From positions 3,534,001 to 3,598,000 of the forward strand of contig NZ_CP095491.1 of assembly GCF_023028105.1 (NCBI RefSeq): a DNA stretch of 64,000 nucleotides, given 5' to 3'. The notes beneath the pieces are model-generated. The model worked only from the letters and a program-made list of their open reading frames with translations. It was not told the DNA's origin and searched no databases. Below, piece after piece: positions 20,163 through 31,641 of this stretch; within the stretch, counting starts at the first letter, position 1, and every line of letters starts with the position of its first letter. The translations under genes and the position numbers were made by a program. The DNA is from Halosolutus gelatinilyticus. Lineage in GTDB: Archaea > Halobacteriota > Halobacteria > Halobacteriales > Natrialbaceae.

Positions 20163-21254
20163 ATGAGTGCGTCTCGACACCCGGTCGCCCTTCGTCTCGA
20201 GCGGATAGTCGGCGGTGACGCGAGGCTGTTAGCGCTGGTGATGATGCTGCCGTTAGTCGACGGCATTTTCCCCGCATTGATCCTCGCGGGCGCGCTCGAC
20301 GGCCCGATGGGCGCGATCCAGGTCGGCCTGCTGATCTTCGGCGGGAGCGCGACCGTCGCGGTAATCCTCGCCGAGATGAGCGGCACGCCCCGCGAACAGG
20401 CGGGGATCGTCTTGCTCGTCGGCGTCCCGCTGATCCTGCTCGCGGCTGTGCAGGCGGCGCTCGCACCGGCGATCGAGAGCGTCGTCGACATCGTTATCTT
20501 CGAGCGGTTCGCCGCGCTCGTGATCGCCGCCATCGCGGCCAAGACCGCGAGCGCGACGATCGGCGACTACCTGCCCAGTCCCGTCACCATCATCGGACTC
20601 GGACTAGTTGCAAGCCTCGACCCAACCGGCGCCTCGATCGTCGTGATGGACGACCCGGTCCTCGTCGCGCACGCGACGCTCGCGGCGGCGGTCGGCGTCG
20701 CCTTCGCGCTCTCGATCGCGCTCGGCGGCCCGTACCTGCGCGAGTACATGGATATCGATCGGTTCCGCTTCGGCAGCGCGGTCGCGCTCGGCCTGCTCCC
20801 GCTGTCGCTGCTCGGGATGGCGTTCGGCCAGGCCCCGCTGGCGGCGCTGCTGGTCGCGGCCGTCTTCGCCCTCGACATCCCGTTCGGTCGAGGGTCGGAC
20901 GCCTCCGACTCTTCTGACTCTCAGAAGTCGCCGGCACCGGCCGACCCCGGCGATATGCCGTCCGTGCCGCGCGGCTCCGCCGAGTCGTCGGTCGCCGACG
21001 GCGGCTCGCGATCGCCCTCGTCGTTCGTCCCCGCCGTCGGTACCGGCCCGCTCACGGACGGCGGCGATTCCGACGGCTCGTCGACGATCGACGCGATCGA
21101 TTCGGCGATCCGATCGTCTGTCGGTGCCAGTAACGAGGACGATGCGGATGACGTCGACGCGCGCAAGGACGAGGACGCAAACGACGGCGTCGAGGAGGGG
21201 CCGTACCCCGGCGACGACAGCACGGAGACCGAAGGCCGAGCTCCGTGGCTGTGA
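20163..21254 (+). CDS. DUF5794-type haloarchaeal membrane protein
   Basis: A 363-residue protein. Residues 1-240 hold about six hydrophobic helices with a central repeat-like organisation (L-V-D-G-I-F-P-A-L-I-L and A-S-L-D-P-T-G-A-S-I-V). Residues 240-363 form a long disordered, Ser/Asp/Gly-rich acidic tail. The membrane part resembles the haloarchaeal DUF5794 family. No function is known to me. It ends 157 bases before tRNA-Trp. Confidence 0.8.
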   Translation: MSASRHPVALRLERIVGGDARLLALVMMLPLVDGIFPALILAGALDGPMGAIQVGLLIFGGSATVAVILAEMSGTPREQAGIVLLVGVPLILLAAVQAALAPAIESVVDIVIFERFAALVIAAIAAKTASATIGDYLPSPVTIIGLGLVASLDPTGASIVVMDDPVLVAHATLAAAVGVAFALSIALGGPYLREYMDIDRFRFGSAVALGLLPLSLLGMAFGQAPLAALLVAAVFALDIPFGRGSDASDSSDSQKSPAPADPGDMPSVPRGSAESSVADGGSRSPSSFVPAVGTGPLTDGGDSDGSSTIDAIDSAIRSSVGASNEDDADDVDARKDEDANDGVEEGPYPGDDSTETEGRAPWL

Positions 21255-23766: not shown

Positions 23767-24255
23767 TTATTCGCTGTCCGCGTCCGATCTCGATTCGGAC
23801 GCGTCGACGATAGCGAGCCACAGTTCTTCGACTTCCTGGACGAACTCGAGGAAATCGTCGGCGCCCATCGGCTTCTGGACGAAGAAGTCGGCGTCGAGCC
23901 CGTTGGATTTCGCGATCTCGGTCCCCGTCTCCGACCCCGTCAACATGATGACAGGGACGTCGCGCAGAGACGGTTCCTCGTCTAATTCGGCGAGTACGTC
24001 TTCGCCGTTCTTGCCGGGAAGGCGCGGTTCGAGTAAAACCAGGTCGATTTGCGGCGCATCCGCATACTCGCCGCGTTGATGAAGAAAATCGAGGGCCTCC
24101 TCGCCGTTGGTGACGGAATAAAAGTCGTTCATGAACTTGGCGTTTCTGAGGTTTTCCTCGAAGAGGCGGGTGTCGCCCGGATTCGGTTCGATCAACAGAA
24201 TGTCGATCGGATCGCCCCGGTTCTCGTCGTCGATCCGCTCGTCCGCTGCAGTCAT
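23767..24255 (-). CDS. Receiver-only protein with Glu at the phospho-acceptor site
   Basis: A 162-residue single REC domain of the Rcp1-like type common in haloarchaea. The conserved Thr (T106 in M-L-T-G-S) and Lys (K128 in V-Q-K-P) are present. The phosphorylatable Asp is Glu76 (L-L-E-P-R-L-P-G; codon GAA checked), and the acidic pocket reads E23-P24-N-P-G-D instead of E-D-N. Normal phosphorylation is therefore unlikely, and a locked 'phospho-like' state is possible. A TTTAAA element 26 bases upstream fits a leaderless mRNA. It is a paralogue of the protein at 27422-27889, on the other side of the PAS kinase. Confidence 0.9.
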   Translation of the reverse strand: MTAADERIDDENRGDPIDILLIEPNPGDTRLFEENLRNAKFMNDFYSVTNGEEALDFLHQRGEYADAPQIDLVLLEPRLPGKNGEDVLAELDEEPSLRDVPVIMLTGSETGTEIAKSNGLDADFFVQKPMGADDFLEFVQEVEELWLAIVDASESRSDADSE

Positions 24256-24445
24256 TAGTTATCCATGTACCCGGCAGTTTAAAGCAGCAACTATATGCAT
24301 CGAAGACGTCCGTTAATTCTGATCGATACGCCCGAGATGAACCCGCGATCGACAGATCTATACGGAGGTTTCGATCGTCGGTCACGTTGAATTCGAACGA
24401 CGTACTGTCCCGTTGAATGTCGGCCGTCGGTCGACGAACTCGCTT

Positions 24446-24676
24446 TTACCCGGGCGTCTCGGACGAATCGTCGCATAATCGGTCCGGTTCGTCGGTCGAA
24501 GCGGGATTCGAGTTTGAGTCGTCCGTTACTTTGGAAAAGGTTGTCCCACCGCACGTACAGCCGTCCGGTTTCCCGATCGGAACGATGTCGCCGTCTCCGT
24601 GCTCGAGCGCCGCGTACACTGATCCACACTCCGCACACGCGGCAAGAAACCGCGCGTTCTCGTCGCTACCAGTCAT
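24446..24676 (-). CDS. Small zinc-ribbon protein
   Basis: A 76-residue protein. Residues 14-45 have C-A-E-C-G-S and, after a strand-turn segment, C-T-C-G-G, giving four Cys placed like a zinc ribbon or rubredoxin knuckle. The last 30 residues are acidic, Ser/Asp/Pro-rich and probably disordered. I chose the ATG at 24676; the longer upstream frame is not protein-like there. It lies between the first degenerate receiver and the kinase. Confidence 0.7.
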   Translation of the reverse strand: MTGSDENARFLAACAECGSVYAALEHGDGDIVPIGKPDGCTCGGTTFSKVTDDSNSNPASTDEPDRLCDDSSETPG

Positions 24677-24988
24677 CAGCGCAGCGAACGCAGGTTGTTT
24701 GAATAAGCGTGTTGTCACTCGGTGAGGAACAACAGCCGAGCCAACACCTACTCCGGAGATCGATCGACGCGGCGGCGTCCCGACCAAGCGACCCGTCTTC
24801 GGCGTCGACGATCCGACCGTGACAGAATTATGCGGTCGATCTGATCCGACTCGACGCCATCGGCCTCGATATCAGTCTCGTCGCGTACGTGTTGACGATA
24901 GTCGACGAGTTCGGGTGCCGATCGCGGCCGTACAGTCACGGATACCGAGGAGAAGTCCTTATAGCCCTGACCGCAATACGTACTGCGA
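24677..24988. other. Divergent promoter region of the PAS kinase
   Basis: About 310 bases. A CCTTATAGCC TATA-like element at 24957-24966 lies 28 bases before the kinase ATG. A weak open frame on the minus strand here lacks recognisable features. Confidence 0.55.
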
Positions 24989-27307
24989 ATGACTTCATCT
25001 CCGCGATCGGGTGTGGACTCGGGGGTCCACGAACGCATCCGTCAGCAGGAGGTCGTCGCTGAACTCGGACAGCAGGCACTCCGGACTGACGACCTCGGTC
25101 AGCTGATGCACGACGCCACCGTCGCCGTCGCCGAGACGCTCGACAGCGAATACGCAACGGTGCTCGAGTTGTGTCCCAGCGGCGACGAGGTCGTTCTCAG
25201 ACAGGGGGTCGGCTGGCGCGACGGACTCGCCGGCTCGGCGACGGTGCCGGCCGATCGGGACACGCACGCGGGATACACGCTCCGCTCCGAGCAGCCGATT
25301 ATCGTCGACGATCTCCGGACGGAGGGGCGATTTTCCGGTTCCGAACTGCTCACCAGTCGCGGCGTCGTCAGCGGGATCAGCGTCGTCATCGGCTCCGTCG
25401 AGGAACCGTGTGGGGTCCTGGAAACGCACACGACCGACCGTCGAGAGTTCGACGAACACGACGCGAACTTCGTCCAGAGCATCGCGAACGTCCTCGCATC
25501 GGCGATCGAAAACGAAGTGGCACACAGCCGACTGCGAGAGATCCACGGTCGAATCACCAACGGAATCCTGGCGCTGAACGAGAACTGGGAGTTCACCCAC
25601 GTCAATCAGCAGGCTGAGACGATCCTCGGCCGCAGTGCCGACGAGTTGCTGGGGACGAACATCTGGGAGACGTTCCCCGAGGTCACCGGCACTGAGTTCG
25701 AAGCGCGGTACCGCGAGGCGATGGCGAATCAGGAGTCCGTTTCGTTCGAAGCGTACTATCCCACGCTCGACACGTGGTTCGAGGAGCACGTCTACCCGTC
25801 CGAGACGGGTCTGTCGGTATACTTCCGGGACGTCACCGAGCAAAAGCAGATCGAGGCGGAACTCGAGGAGATTTACGGACGCATCTCGGACGCCTTCTTC
25901 GCGCTCGACGAGGAGTGGCGGTTCACTCACCTGAACGAACGCGCACACGAGTTGATCAACCCCAAGGGCCGGTCGCTGACCGGAAAGAACATGTGGACGG
26001 AGTTCCCCGACGCGGCCGAACGAAAGTTCAAATCCCAGTACGAGCGGGCGATGTACGAACAGGAAACCGTCTCCTTCGAGGAGTACTACCCTGAGCCGCT
26101 GAACACGTGGTTCGAAGTGCGAGCGTATCCCTCGGAGACCGGGCTGTCCGTCTACTTCAGGGACGTCTCCGATCGCAAGGAGCGTGAAGCCGAGCACGCG
26201 GCGATGGTCCGCGAGTTACAGGAGAGCGAAGAACGGTTGCGACTCGCGCTCAAAGCCGGCGAGATGGGCACGTGGGAACTCGATCTGCAAACCGAGAACG
26301 CGCCGATCCGGTCGCCGCAGCACGATCGGATCTTCGGGTACGAGGAGCCACTCGAGGACTGGAACTTCAAGACCTTCCTCGAGCACGTCCACCCGAACGA
26401 TCGCGAGGAGGTGACGCGGCGATTCGAGGACGCGTTCGAGGCGGGAAAGTGGGAGTTCGAGTGCCGTATCAAGCGCGTCGACGGTGAACAGCGGGTGATC
26501 GCCGCCCAGGGGGAGTTCTACTTCGACAGCGAGGGTGAGCCGGTTCGCGCGGTGGGCGTGGTGCAGGACGTCACCGATCGGCACGAACGCGAACGGAAAC
26601 TCGAACGACTCGTCGAACAGCTCGAGGAGTCCAACCAGCGCTTAGAGCAGTTCGCGTACGCCGCTTCCCACGACCTGCAGGAACCGTTGCGGATGGTTTC
26701 GAGCTACCTCCAGCTCCTGGAGCGACGGTACGCCGGCGAGCTCGACGAGGACGCTGAGGAGTTCCTCGAGTTTGCCGTCGACGGCGCCGATCGGATGCGC
26801 GAGATGATCGACGGCCTCCTCGAGTACTCGCGGGTCGACACGCAGGGCGATCCGTTCGAACCGGTCGACCTGGACGCGACGCTCGACGAGACGCTCGAAA
26901 ACCTGCAAGTGAAGATCGAGGAGAACGAGGCCGAGATCACGGTCGAAGCGCTTCCTCGCGTCCACGGCGACGAGAGCCAACTGCAACAACTGTTCCAGAA
27001 CCTCCTGTCGAACGCGCTCGAGTACAGCGGCGACGAGCCGCCTCGGATTCACGTCGAAGCCGATCGACGAGGGCCGAACTGGCGACTCTCGGTCCACGAC
27101 GAGGGGATCGGGATCGATCCCGACGATCACGACCGGGTCTTCGAGGTGTTCCAGCGGCTCCACAGTCGCGAGGAGCACTCCGGGACCGGCATCGGATTAG
27201 CGCTCTGTCAGCGGATCGTCGAACGACACGGCGGACGCATCTGGGTCGAGTCGGAACCCGACGCGGGGACGACGTTCTCGTTCACGCTGCCGGCGATCGA
27301 CTCATAG
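24989..27307 (+). CDS. Soluble multi-sensor histidine kinase (GAF-PAS-PAS-PAS-HisKA-HATPase)
   Basis: A 772-residue cytoplasmic kinase without membrane helices. GAF at about 25-175. Two closely similar PAS domains at about 180-295 and 295-410 share the Y-P-S-E-T-G-L-S-V-Y-F-R-D-V segment almost word for word, indicating an internal duplication. A PAS_3-type domain follows at about 420-530. The H-box is A-S-H-D-L-Q-E-P-L with His561, a phytochrome/HWE-unrelated 'HDLQEPL' type typical of haloarchaea. The ATPase domain has N-box, D-E-G-I-G-I and G-T-G-I-G-L-A-L motifs. Predicted leaderless. The two flanking receiver proteins are its obvious partners, but neither has the acceptor Asp. Confidence 0.93.
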   Translation: MTSSPRSGVDSGVHERIRQQEVVAELGQQALRTDDLGQLMHDATVAVAETLDSEYATVLELCPSGDEVVLRQGVGWRDGLAGSATVPADRDTHAGYTLRSEQPIIVDDLRTEGRFSGSELLTSRGVVSGISVVIGSVEEPCGVLETHTTDRREFDEHDANFVQSIANVLASAIENEVAHSRLREIHGRITNGILALNENWEFTHVNQQAETILGRSADELLGTNIWETFPEVTGTEFEARYREAMANQESVSFEAYYPTLDTWFEEHVYPSETGLSVYFRDVTEQKQIEAELEEIYGRISDAFFALDEEWRFTHLNERAHELINPKGRSLTGKNMWTEFPDAAERKFKSQYERAMYEQETVSFEEYYPEPLNTWFEVRAYPSETGLSVYFRDVSDRKEREAEHAAMVRELQESEERLRLALKAGEMGTWELDLQTENAPIRSPQHDRIFGYEEPLEDWNFKTFLEHVHPNDREEVTRRFEDAFEAGKWEFECRIKRVDGEQRVIAAQGEFYFDSEGEPVRAVGVVQDVTDRHERERKLERLVEQLEESNQRLEQFAYAASHDLQEPLRMVSSYLQLLERRYAGELDEDAEEFLEFAVDGADRMREMIDGLLEYSRVDTQGDPFEPVDLDATLDETLENLQVKIEENEAEITVEALPRVHGDESQLQQLFQNLLSNALEYSGDEPPRIHVEADRRGPNWRLSVHDEGIGIDPDDHDRVFEVFQRLHSREEHSGTGIGLALCQRIVERHGGRIWVESEPDAGTTFSFTLPAIDS

Positions 27308-27421
27308 CCCGGACGGGCACTCGAAAAACGGTCCGCCGCGAGGCACGTCAAATCGGACGCTGGCGCCGGACCGGAGCGTCTCGGCGCCTGAGATGAACTC
27401 GAGTGTGGTCCCGGCGGCCGC

Positions 27422-27889
27422 TCAGTCGGTATCCTCGGTTTTGACGATCGCGAACCAGAACTCCTCGACCTCCCGGACGAACTCGATGAACTCCGCGGTC
27501 GTTACGGGTTTCCGAAGGTACTCGTCCGCCTCGATGCCGTGGGATCGTACGATCTCTTCGCCGGTGTCGGAACTGGTGAGGACGACGACGTGAACGTCGC
27601 GTAACGCGGGTTCGTTTTTCAGCTCGGAGAGCAGCTCCATCCCAGTTGTTCCGGGAAGCTTCGGTTCCAGTAGGATGATGTCCGGCCGTGGTGCGTCTTC
27701 GTAGTCGCCGTGCTGGGAGACGAACTCGAGCGCACGCTCGCCGTCGGAGACGGTATGAACGATATTCCTGAGCTTCGCGTCTCGAAAGGTCTCGGTGAAG
27801 AGGCGGCTGTCGCCGGGATTCGGTTCGACCAGCAGGATGTCGATCTCGTCTTCGGCACCGCCTTCGGTTGCATCGCCGGCGGAAGTCAT
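27422..27889 (-). CDS. Second receiver-only protein with Glu at the phospho-acceptor site
   Basis: A 155-residue REC domain, paralogue of the protein at 23767-24255. It shares E-P-N-P-G-D, L-L-E-P-K-L-P-G, T105 (V-L-T-S-S), K127 (L-R-K-P) and the aromatic C-terminal helix V-E-E-F-W-F-A-I-V. The acceptor Asp is Glu75 (codon GAA checked) and the second pocket acid is Pro23. I chose ATG 27889, which has a TTTACG-like promoter element 25 bases upstream; an earlier in-frame start adds 18 Cys/Arg-rich residues. Convergent with the kinase gene. Confidence 0.9.
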   Translation of the reverse strand: MTSAGDATEGGAEDEIDILLVEPNPGDSRLFTETFRDAKLRNIVHTVSDGERALEFVSQHGDYEDAPRPDIILLEPKLPGTTGMELLSELKNEPALRDVHVVVLTSSDTGEEIVRSHGIEADEYLRKPVTTAEFIEFVREVEEFWFAIVKTEDTD

Positions 27890-29043: not shown

Positions 29044-29258
29044 ACGGACGACAGGATCCTGAACAGCAAAAGGGTACGGCCGGCATATTGGAACGCGGCG
29101 GCCGTCGGAACCGGTGATGATCCCGCCGAGGATCGGCCCGCCGCGATCCGATTTGGCACCGTAAGTGTCCCGTACCGGTGAGAGTCACGGAAAAGTGGTT
29201 GCGGGAAAGGCTACCGGAAACACAACCCGTCTATACGCCATTGTGGTGGAACCCGGTG

Positions 29259-29933
29259 ATGACAACGGTCGTCGAACTCGAAGTTCCGGCGGATCGACTC
29301 GGTGCCGCTCGGGCGTTCGATCGGGTTCCGTCGTTCGAGCTGCGGATCGGCGGCATTATCGGCACGTCGCCGCCGCTCGTCTGGACGTCGGGACCCGATC
29401 GCCTGACGATCAAACGAGCGCTCGAGTCGGATCCGTCAGTCGAGGTGCTCGCGAGTCTGACCGACGGAACCGGGAGGGAGACGGACGACGACTGTTGGTT
29501 GTTCCAGCTCGAATTCGGCGACGACATGAAATTATTCCAGCAGATCGTCTCGGAGAGCGACGGTACTATTCTCGCGGCGCACGGGCAGGACGGGCGGTGG
29601 TCGCTGAAACTGCTCTTTACCGATCACAAGCGCGTCTCCGAGTGCCACGATCGGTTCGCCCAGTACGATTTCCGGGTCACCGTGACGCGAGTCAGCGGGA
29701 CGAACGACATCACGAGCGCGCGGACGCCGCTGACGAGCACCCAGTACGAGGCGATCTACAAGGCCTACGAACTCGGCTACTTCGACGTTCCGCGGCGGAT
29801 CACGCTGGAAGAACTCGCGGACGAACTGGACGTCTCCCACCAGGCGCTGTCGGAACGGCTCCGCCGAAGTCACGCGGCGCTGGTCGATGCGGAACTCTCG
29901 GCGGGAATGACGCCGCTCCAGTCGGACCCCTGA
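29259..29933 (+). CDS. Bat/HTH-10 type regulator
   Basis: A 224-residue regulator like the one at 16384. An N-terminal beta-rich domain is followed by a C-terminal HTH-10 (about 170-215) with S-T-Q-Y-E-A-I-Y-K-A-Y, Y-E-L-G-Y-F-D-V-P-R-R and the helix S-H-Q-A-L-S-E-R-L-R-R. ATG 29259 begins M-T-T-V-V-E-L-E-V, the usual start of this family; upstream ATG 29178 would add 27 atypical residues. Target unknown. Confidence 0.88.
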   Translation: MTTVVELEVPADRLGAARAFDRVPSFELRIGGIIGTSPPLVWTSGPDRLTIKRALESDPSVEVLASLTDGTGRETDDDCWLFQLEFGDDMKLFQQIVSESDGTILAAHGQDGRWSLKLLFTDHKRVSECHDRFAQYDFRVTVTRVSGTNDITSARTPLTSTQYEAIYKAYELGYFDVPRRITLEELADELDVSHQALSERLRRSHAALVDAELSAGMTPLQSDP

Positions 29934-30278: not shown

Positions 30279-30725
30279 TCAGTCGGCGCGGGGCGTCCGA
30301 TCTGTCGGCCCCGTCTCGCGATCGAGGACCCGGTGGGCGTAAAAGACCACCGAGAAGTCCTGCGGGCTCGGAATCGCACAGGCGAGCCAGCCGATCGCAG
30401 CCGCGGTGAGGACGGGCTGTGCGGTCGTTAGGTAACCGCCGACGCCGAGTCCGAGCACGGGAACTGTGAGGAGAAGCGGGGCGAGGGCGGTAACGCGGAG
30501 GACCCAGGGCGGCTCCCTGCCCGTCGGATGGGGCCGAACGACCGCCCAAGGGCAGCTGGCGAGGAGTCCGACGAAGCCGTCGGAGCGGCGAGGAAAATAC
30601 ACGATGGTGTGCTCGACGCCGGCGAGTCGCAGAAGGAGGGCGTGTGACCACTCGTGGGCCACCAGTCCCGCGACGACGGCGACGGCGAGTACGCATCCAG
30701 CAACTACCACATCCATCCCGATCAT
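30279..30725 (-). CDS. Membrane protein with HExxH metalloprotease motif
   Basis: A 148-residue polytopic protein. The first helix leads into A-H-E-W-S-H-A-L (HExxH), and two or three further hydrophobic helices follow (about residues 75-95, 100-120), giving an M50/DUF3267-like layout in miniature. The family's third ligand is not obvious; D-F-S-V-V-F-Y near the C-terminus is one candidate region. It may be a small intramembrane metalloprotease or an inactive relative. A second start at 30716 is possible. Confidence 0.7.
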   Translation of the reverse strand: MIGMDVVVAGCVLAVAVVAGLVAHEWSHALLLRLAGVEHTIVYFPRRSDGFVGLLASCPWAVVRPHPTGREPPWVLRVTALAPLLLTVPVLGLGVGGYLTTAQPVLTAAAIGWLACAIPSPQDFSVVFYAHRVLDRETGPTDRTPRAD

Positions 30726-30891
30726 CTCGCGAGGGGGACGTCCGCCCGTTCGAGACGATCACCGTCGTTCCGCTGTAGTCGAGGGCATCCCACGCACTCG
30801 ATGCGAGCGCGGCCAGCCGCAAGGTCGATCGGGTTCACTGATCATCGCATTAAGTTCGCCGCCGCGAGGTGGGCTAGAGGTTAAGTATTGT

Positions 30892-30904
30892 GGGGTGGTA
30901 CCCC
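30892..30904. promoter_or_regulatory. Short inverted repeat in front of the HTH-GNAT gene
   Basis: GGGGT-GGT-ACCCC, between a TTAAGTAT TATA-like element (about 30878-30886) and the ATG at 30910. It could be an autoregulatory operator for the winged-helix part of the encoded protein. Short, so uncertain. Confidence 0.3.
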
Positions 30905-30909
30905 GTGTC

Positions 30910-31641
30910 ATGACTTTCAGCGAATCTCTCGAGTTCGGTCACGCGGATCGCAAGGCGATCTACGAGCACGTCGAACGCCACGGCGCCGTCGACCCCAACG
31001 ACGTCCGGGATCGACTCGGAATCGATCCGAGCGGGTTCCGCCACCACGTGGCGATCCTCAAGCGCGACGGGCGGCTCGAGGAGACCGATGGACGGCTTCG
31101 CGTGACGATCGAGGCGGGAGCCGAAGAGGAGTATGTCTCGGAGGACCTCGAGTTCCACATCCGGCCGGCCAGACAGGAGGACCTCTCGGGGATCGTCGGC
31201 GCGATCCGGCAGGTCGCCGAGGAGCGAACTTACATCGAAGCGGAGAGCGTCGCCGACGAGGTCGATCACGAGGAAACGCTGCTCCGACACAACGAACTCG
31301 AGTCGCGGATGTTCTTCGTCGCGACCGTCGACGACGAGGTGGTCGGCTGGGTCCACCTCCACGCGCCCGAACTGGAGAAACTCTCGCACACCGCCGAACT
31401 CACGGTAGGCGTCGTCGAAGGCTATCGGGGTCACGGCATCGGTTCGCACCTCCTCTCGCGAGGGCTCGAGTGGGCGGGCTCGAACGGCTATGAAAAGGTC
31501 TACCAGAGCGTCCCCTCGACGAACGACGACGCGATCGCGTTCCTCGAAGCGCACGACTGGGAGACCGAAGCGGTCCGCGAGGATCACTACAAACTCAACG
31601 GCGACTACGTCGACGAAGTGATGATGGCGGTCGAACTGTAA
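30910..31641 (+). CDS. Winged-helix/GNAT acetyltransferase fusion
   Basis: A 243-residue protein. Residues 1-70 form a winged-helix DNA-binding domain (R-K-A-I-Y-E-H-V-E-R-H-G-A, then the recognition helix region S-G-F-R-H-H-V-A-I-L). Residues 85-243 are a GNAT domain with V-G-V-V-E-G-Y-R-G-H-G-I-G as the acetyl-CoA loop and E-K-V-Y-Q-S-V and L-E-A-H-D-W-E-T-E later. Such fusions may sense a ligand by acetylation or acetylate a chromatin or metabolic target; this is inference. Predicted leaderless start at 30910. Confidence 0.88.
   Translation: MTFSESLEFGHADRKAIYEHVERHGAVDPNDVRDRLGIDPSGFRHHVAILKRDGRLEETDGRLRVTIEAGAEEEYVSEDLEFHIRPARQEDLSGIVGAIRQVAEERTYIEAESVADEVDHEETLLRHNELESRMFFVATVDDEVVGWVHLHAPELEKLSHTAELTVGVVEGYRGHGIGSHLLSRGLEWAGSNGYEKVYQSVPSTNDDAIAFLEAHDWETEAVREDHYKLNGDYVDEVMMAVEL

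Follow-up and report, generated by a model that had tools for sequence, protein, structure and literature searches.

We analysed a 64,000-nt stretch of the genome of the haloarchaeon Halosolutus gelatinilyticus (contig NZ_CP095491.1, positions 3,534,001 to 3,598,000 of the forward strand; hereafter, the window), in which a histidine kinase gene is flanked by two genes for receiver-only proteins, RR-A and RR-B (Table 1). Both products match the Response_reg domain (PF00072), with 46.7 and 56.2 bits, respectively, as compared to a Pfam cut-off of 30.2. RR-A reads E23-P24 and E76-P77, and RR-B reads E22-P23 and E75-P76; that is, Glu stands in place of the phospho-accepting Asp, and the second residue of the acidic pair, a direct metal ligand in receivers (PMC12632262; this source, PMC4395418 and PMC12548384 are cited from excerpts), is a Pro. 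The first acid, the switch Thr (Thr105 in RR-B) and the Lys (Lys127 in RR-B) are retained in both, as is the aromatic residue three positions before that Lys (Tyr in RR-B, Phe in RR-A). Direct reading thus bears out the preliminary description of this DNA, made from the sequence letters, which had reported the two substitutions and the kept residues. The host genome yields 26 REC matches, 22 of them above the cut-off, among which RR-A and RR-B are the sole exact matches to the E-P motif defined below. The kinase looks intact, as HisKA and HATPase_c are both matched. RR-A is divergent from it at a distance of 733 bp and RR-B convergent with it at 114 bp; the three genes therefore do not make up the one operon envisaged earlier.

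Table 1. Features of the receiver–kinase locus, in window positions. The length of RR-B is counted from the ATG at 27889; the mechanically called open reading frame begins further upstream, at a TTG.
Feature	Coordinates	Strand	Basis
RR-A, receiver-only pseudo-receiver, EP..EP, 162 aa	23767..24255	minus	read directly, Pfam
RR-A E23-P24: Pro in place of the second metal-binding acid, first acid retained	24184..24189	minus	
RR-A E76: Glu in place of the phospho-acceptor	24028..24030	minus	
RR-B, receiver-only pseudo-receiver, EP..EP, 155 aa	27422..27889	minus	read directly, Pfam
RR-B E22-P23: Pro in place of the second metal-binding acid, first acid retained; P23 = PhoB D10	27821..27826	minus	
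RR-B E75: Glu in place of the phospho-acceptor; = PhoB D53	27665..27667	minus	
Histidine kinase, GAF-PAS-PAS-PAS-HisKA-HATPase_c, 772 aa; neighbour	24989..27307	plus	Pfam
DUF5794 gene, syntenic anchor of the locus	20163..21254	plus	
HTH_10 regulator, in the conserved flanking block	29178..29933	plus	
Open reading frame with a GNAT acetyltransferase match in its C-terminal half, in the conserved flanking block	30466..31641	plus	

Receivers of this kind occur in many genera of Halobacteria. At E<=0.001, 1481 and 604 proteins passed for the two queries, and the union of the best 120 for each, RR-A and RR-B included, comprises 191 proteins. Pro takes the place of the second acid in 183 of these best-listed homologues; as acceptor, 173 carry Glu, 15 Asp and three Asn. 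Seven carry Asp at the second acid, with Asp (five) or Asn (two) as the acceptor. Two related receivers (P0185 and P0186) combine a normal acidic pair with an Asn acceptor that is followed by Trp. When the closest Asp receiver of the host genome served as query, Asp occupied both positions in all 120 best-listed proteins.

At least 67 of 391 Halobacteria genomes, from at least 22 of 86 genera, contain a DNA motif for E-P-[NS]-P-G-D-x-R-L; the reversed control pattern is found in none of the 391 genomes, which rules out chance matches. These counts are lower bounds, since variants escape the motif, as does an EP-E receiver (Pro with a Glu acceptor) in genome G376 (locus L277) that is absent from the matches. 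We read the sequence at all 107 motif places: 106 encode a receiver, the exception being in genome G021, and their acceptor is Glu at 84, Asp at 21 and Asn at one. The window's own family (f1) holds 92 of these places in 57 genomes; EP receivers occur outside it in nine genomes, the tenth motif genome there being G021 with its non-receiver match. Within the window's genus, the other two genomes gave no motif match. A single-sequence scan of genome contigs returned six loci, one of which is a distant bacterial match. No description of the clade reported below was found in the literature searched at the level of titles and abstract openings, nor was any match for haloarchaea together with Rcp1; according to an excerpt of a 2025 review, archaeal aspartate-less receivers have not been studied.

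We inferred a tree of 130 receiver sequences with the four trait columns masked; it is a quick tree from few columns, with support from the Shimodaira–Hasegawa-like approximate likelihood ratio test (SH-aLRT) only. RR-A and RR-B fall inside one clade of 88 sequences (SH-aLRT 98), which we call EP-E: Pro replaces the second acid in every member, and the acceptor is Glu in 83, Asp in four and Asn in one. Its sister clade (EP-D; 17 sequences, SH-aLRT 95) has Pro with an Asp acceptor throughout, and the canonical receivers form a separate group (SH-aLRT 96), including one Pro-and-Glu receiver. RR-B belongs to a 12-member subgroup (support 97), while RR-A sits elsewhere in EP-E, on a long branch (0.73) with a weakly supported placement within the clade. 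Being placed in different parts of it, the two are old paralogues that have each retained the Glu and Pro residues, and the shared changes were therefore inherited and not acquired twice. Independent change in two paralogues, which the preliminary description had taken as a sign of selection, is rejected: the likeness is one of descent.

The sister clade, in which Pro is always paired with Asp, suggests that Pro preceded Glu and that Glu arose once. The most likely order is, then, a single change to Pro followed by a single change to Glu in EP-E, a clade that is most cheaply explained by a single origin, with some three later reversions to Asp as the cheapest reading; the tree does not settle how the three branches with Pro (EP-E, EP-D, and L240 with L089) are ordered. 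The Pro-and-Glu receiver on a long branch among the canonical sequences (L099:4896-5411, genome G352) may be a second origin of the combination or a misplacement. Another receiver, in a congener of the host (L240:7091-7549, genome G386), reads EPEPHSA, with Pro at the second acid and an Asp acceptor. It groups with L089 outside EP-E, so its Pro may be independent. L089 itself is a degenerate receiver of the host genome (C1 3508435-3508785), with Ser in place of the second acid, Ala in place of the switch Thr and an Asp acceptor.

The EP-E clade is under purifying selection. The median ratio of non-synonymous to synonymous substitution rates (dN/dS) is 0.18 over 156 close pairs of Glu-bearing members, pairs that exclude RR-A and RR-B, both too distant from their relatives for pairing. 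Together with Pro in 88 and Glu in 83 of the 88 members, this upholds the earlier proposal of selection rather than decay. Over the 88 sequences, 17 of 139 columns are invariant (Glu22, Pro23, Lys127 and 14 more). The acceptor column needs four changes, against a median of nine per column, although a single base separates Glu from Asp codons and flips, taking 8 to 24 steps, are seen in many acidic columns. Ten columns are diagnostic of EP-E as against canonical receivers. One is F31 of alpha1, present in 88/88 EP-E and 17/17 Pro-with-Asp sequences and in 0/20 canonical ones; G110, D122 and F137, also among the ten, lie on the alpha4-beta5-alpha5 side.

The preliminary description had also suggested a partnership between both receivers and the kinase that they flank. 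The closest homologue of the window kinase (77% over the full length, genome G264) has no receiver within ~5 kb in phmmer searches with RR-A and RR-B. The kinase of congener G386 (58% over residues 287-769) is accompanied by a convergent receiver with Pro and a normal Asp, and that of genome G395 (54%) by a canonical Asp receiver directly 3′ on the same strand. A normal Asp in the loci of close relatives is what the preliminary description had named as evidence against its proposal, and for the kinase link, this is what the latter two genomes hold. As to co-occurring kinases, for which the preliminary description had proposed a search along with the signature, a histidine kinase lies within 1.5 kb of 8 of the 86 other EP-E genes, and within ~5 kb of 11. 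By chance, ~3.5 of the 86 would be expected within 1.5 kb (p=0.025), from an approximate null based on at least 34 kinases, which makes ~3.5 a minimum expectation and the enrichment a maximum. None of the 17 Pro-with-Asp genes has a kinase nearby. On a kinase tree, the kinases beside EP-E genes are not clustered (12 sequences, 10 changes, shuffled mean 10.7). No operon is shared and the linkage is not kept with the closest kinase homologues, and so RR-A and RR-B do not appear as cognate partners of their neighbour.

The kinases near EP-E genes are concentrated at one syntenic place. A kinase within 1.5 kb is found for 7 of the 14 EP-E genes located <=25 kb from a DUF5794 gene in the window's family and for 1 of the 72 others, which include one gene from another family (L096) that also adjoins DUF5794. 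DUF5794 (E<=1e-30) is present in 117 of 121 family genomes, in single copy except in G399 (two matches; genome 77% complete), and in most fetched loci, guaB adjoins it. Of the 92 EP places, 16 are found no more than 25 kb from DUF5794, where 1.1 would be expected; in 15 cases the place is downstream, and in 15 it is on the opposite strand. The gene order common to other genera is guaB, DUF5794, EP-E receiver, sometimes kinase, HTH_10 and GNAT. As other genera share the synteny of the window locus, we did not retain pure chance as the explanation of the kinase linkage. Between RR-A and the kinase, the window also carries a small open reading frame of 113 aa with several Cys (24446-24787, minus strand) and no Pfam match; a homologue (57 bits) adjoins HTH_10 in congener G371 (L247).

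We compared 61 DUF5794 loci (60 fetched plus the window), and counted the 58 with >12 kb of downstream sequence (L266, L274 and L305 are too short). A locus was scored for a kinase of >200 bits on the DUF5794 strand and for an EP-E receiver, both within 15 kb downstream; the table of loci and the set of 22 that keep the flanking block, window included, were assigned by hand, and the receiver residues were read from the alignment. Both genes are present at 7 of the 58 loci, an EP-E receiver only at 5, a kinase only at 6 and neither at 40 (p=0.0026). At the 22 loci retaining the block, the corresponding numbers are 5, 4, 5 and 8 (p=0.67). Scored as neither were L304 (EP-E receiver upstream of DUF5794), G116 and G353 (EP-E receiver and kinase ~20 to 23 kb downstream) and G371 (kinase ~19 kb downstream). 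With G116, G353 and G371 counted in, the 58 loci give 9, 5, 7 and 37 (p=0.0011), and the block-keeping set with G353 and G371 gives 6, 4, 6 and 8 (p=0.68). Because the association is gone where the block is kept, receiver and kinase seem to belong to an old neighbourhood and to have been lost or gained separately. The EP-E family has not conserved adjacency to this kinase, and a conserved kinase operon is rejected by the neighbourhoods, the kinase homologues, the kinase tree and the DUF5794 loci alike.

Two arrangements elsewhere deserve mention. In genome G056 (L107:2409-7334), a kinase, an EP-E receiver (Glu, Leu), a second kinase with an archaeal 4TM region and a canonical Asp receiver stand in a row, a good natural case of a pseudo-receiver inside a complete two-component set. 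In genome G116 (L191:4622-10756), tandem EP-E paralogues from different subclades lie beside a kinase, ~20 kb from DUF5794.

PhoB, a regulator bearing a DNA-binding domain, provides an engineered parallel to the EP-E receivers. PDB entry 2jb9 is titled as a constitutively active PhoB double mutant, D10A and D53E. P23 of RR-B corresponds to PhoB D10 in an AlphaFold2 model (predicted local distance difference test score, pLDDT, 73) and E75 to D53 by sequence, and the EP-E receivers are therefore naturally changed at the two locking positions of PhoB, with the second acid lost and Glu as the acceptor in both cases; in contrast, the PhoB mutant has Ala, not Pro, at the second acid. More broadly, EP-E receivers fall within the known aspartate-less receivers, or pseudo-receivers (PMC4395418, PMC12632262), sharing with them a REC fold (by Pfam), a replaced acceptor Asp and the loss of the second acid; there, too, Glu is the commonest substitute, and the first acid and the Lys are kept. 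Unlike that general assemblage, EP-E is one old archaeal receiver-only clade with an invariant Pro, whereas a common replacement of the second acid in pseudo-receivers is Asn (PMC12632262). CmrT of Clostridioides difficile and AtvR likewise have a natural Glu acceptor, an altered acidic pair and an inferred constitutive activity (PMC12548384), but CmrT is an OmpR-family regulator co-transcribed with a kinase in cmrRST (PMC12548384), while RR-A and RR-B are receiver-only and outside a kinase operon. The closest solved relatives by sequence are 5te9 (1.4e-33), RcpA (7.4e-25) and Rcp1 (5.7e-24), and the same Rcp1-type entries are among the top six by Foldseek. In alignments, 5te9, Rcp1/RcpA and other phytochrome-type response regulators (1i3c, 1jlk, 1k68) share with RR-A and RR-B a conserved Trp close to the C-terminal end; at the two altered positions, 5te9 and 1k68 both carry Asp, in contrast to RR-A and RR-B with their Glu acceptor.

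By analogy with PhoB, we predict, with about even confidence, that RR-A and RR-B are pseudo-receivers in a permanently active-like state, working by dosage and contact and not by phosphate from the neighbouring kinase. Pro is unable to bind metal, and with Pro fixed at the second acid, phosphotransfer would be lost. Glu75 would reach Lys127 and Thr105, mimic phospho-Asp and hold the Thr-Tyr switch in its active position; the PhoB precedent makes this mimicry, already invoked in the preliminary description, appear more plausible. The nearly fixed F31, G110, D122 and F137 would serve a clade-specific partner or a dimer. As no DNA-binding or other output domain is attached, output would depend on the amount of protein, and the targets of the neighbouring kinase are most likely canonical receivers encoded elsewhere in the genome. 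Several observations weigh against a locked-on state. Five of the 88 EP-E members have an Asp or Asn acceptor while keeping Pro, and Glu is therefore not indispensable; the switch Thr is replaced in seven (Ser in three, Met in three, Leu in one). The RR-B model, of moderate confidence, does not settle between an active and an inactive shape, and the three of four kinase-interface positions that are fixed in alpha1 suit a kinase-binding role equally. In addition, for some pseudo-receivers the Glu hypothesis is reported to have been disproved (PMC12632262), and ChxR kept its constitutive DNA binding when its Glu was changed to Asp or Ala (PMC4395418).

The kinase-binding role just mentioned is a conceivable though rather unlikely explanation, by which an EP-E protein keeps the HisKA-binding face of a receiver, takes no phosphate, and tunes one or several kinases as a docking competitor or adaptor. 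The fixed alpha1 residues G26, D27 and L30 correspond to three of the four rewired interface positions of RR468 (13, 14, 17 and 21 in the title of 4ja2); each is found in 88/88 EP-E sequences and in 19/20, 20/20 and 20/20 canonical ones, respectively, but at the fourth (position 34), EP-E mostly has Ser, Asn, Gln or Lys where canonical receivers have Ala. The L107 receiver between two kinases, the second followed by a canonical receiver, another EP-E receiver flanked by two kinases (L123), and the excess of kinases within 1.5 kb, overall and near DUF5794, agree with docking. Nevertheless, 75 of the 86 genes are without a kinase within ~5 kb, the adjacent kinases do not cluster on their tree, and the excess comes from related loci of one syntenic place and from an approximate null. 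The narrower idea of the preliminary description, that RR-A and RR-B are dedicated, constitutively active partners of this specific kinase, is improbable. They do adjoin it here, and both genes occur together at 7 of 58 DUF5794 loci, window included, more often than by chance. However, that association vanishes in the genomes keeping the block, the kinases are not one clade and share no operon with the receivers, the 77% kinase homologue is without a neighbouring receiver, and the G386 and G395 kinases adjoin Asp receivers.

We consider it similarly improbable that the proteins still switch, by way of another residue, a modification of the Glu or metal-independent chemistry. The conserved Thr-Tyr/Phe-Lys network and the four EP-E members with Asp beside Pro would accord with such residual switching, and Glu methylation has been raised in PMC4395418, but the directly metal-binding acid is Pro without exception. 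Neutral decay of a receiver with lost function would account for the loss of catalytic residues; it is very hard to reconcile with the low median dN/dS of close clade pairs (RR-A and RR-B being outside them), the unchanged columns, for which RR-A and RR-B are included, and the presence in many genera, and we regard it as extremely unlikely.

To return to the predicted permanently active-like state, we put forward, as a tentative and rather doubtful extension, that EP-E is a natural counterpart of the PhoB D10A/D53E lock that became fixed a single time, in an ancestor, and was retained across many genera, and that it wires histidine kinase networks through dosage and kinase docking without a flow of phosphate. 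The clade is well defined: Pro probably came before Glu, the sister clade pairs Pro with Asp, and some members have Asp again; as all these exist alongside a PhoB mutant changed at the same positions, whether natural Glu receivers are locked on is testable in a few small proteins. The observation reaches beyond this locus, to a clade of haloarchaeal pseudo-receivers under selection, with the function proposed here as a prediction. If that prediction is true, haloarchaeal proteins would employ a phosphorylation-switch fold with no phosphorylation involved.

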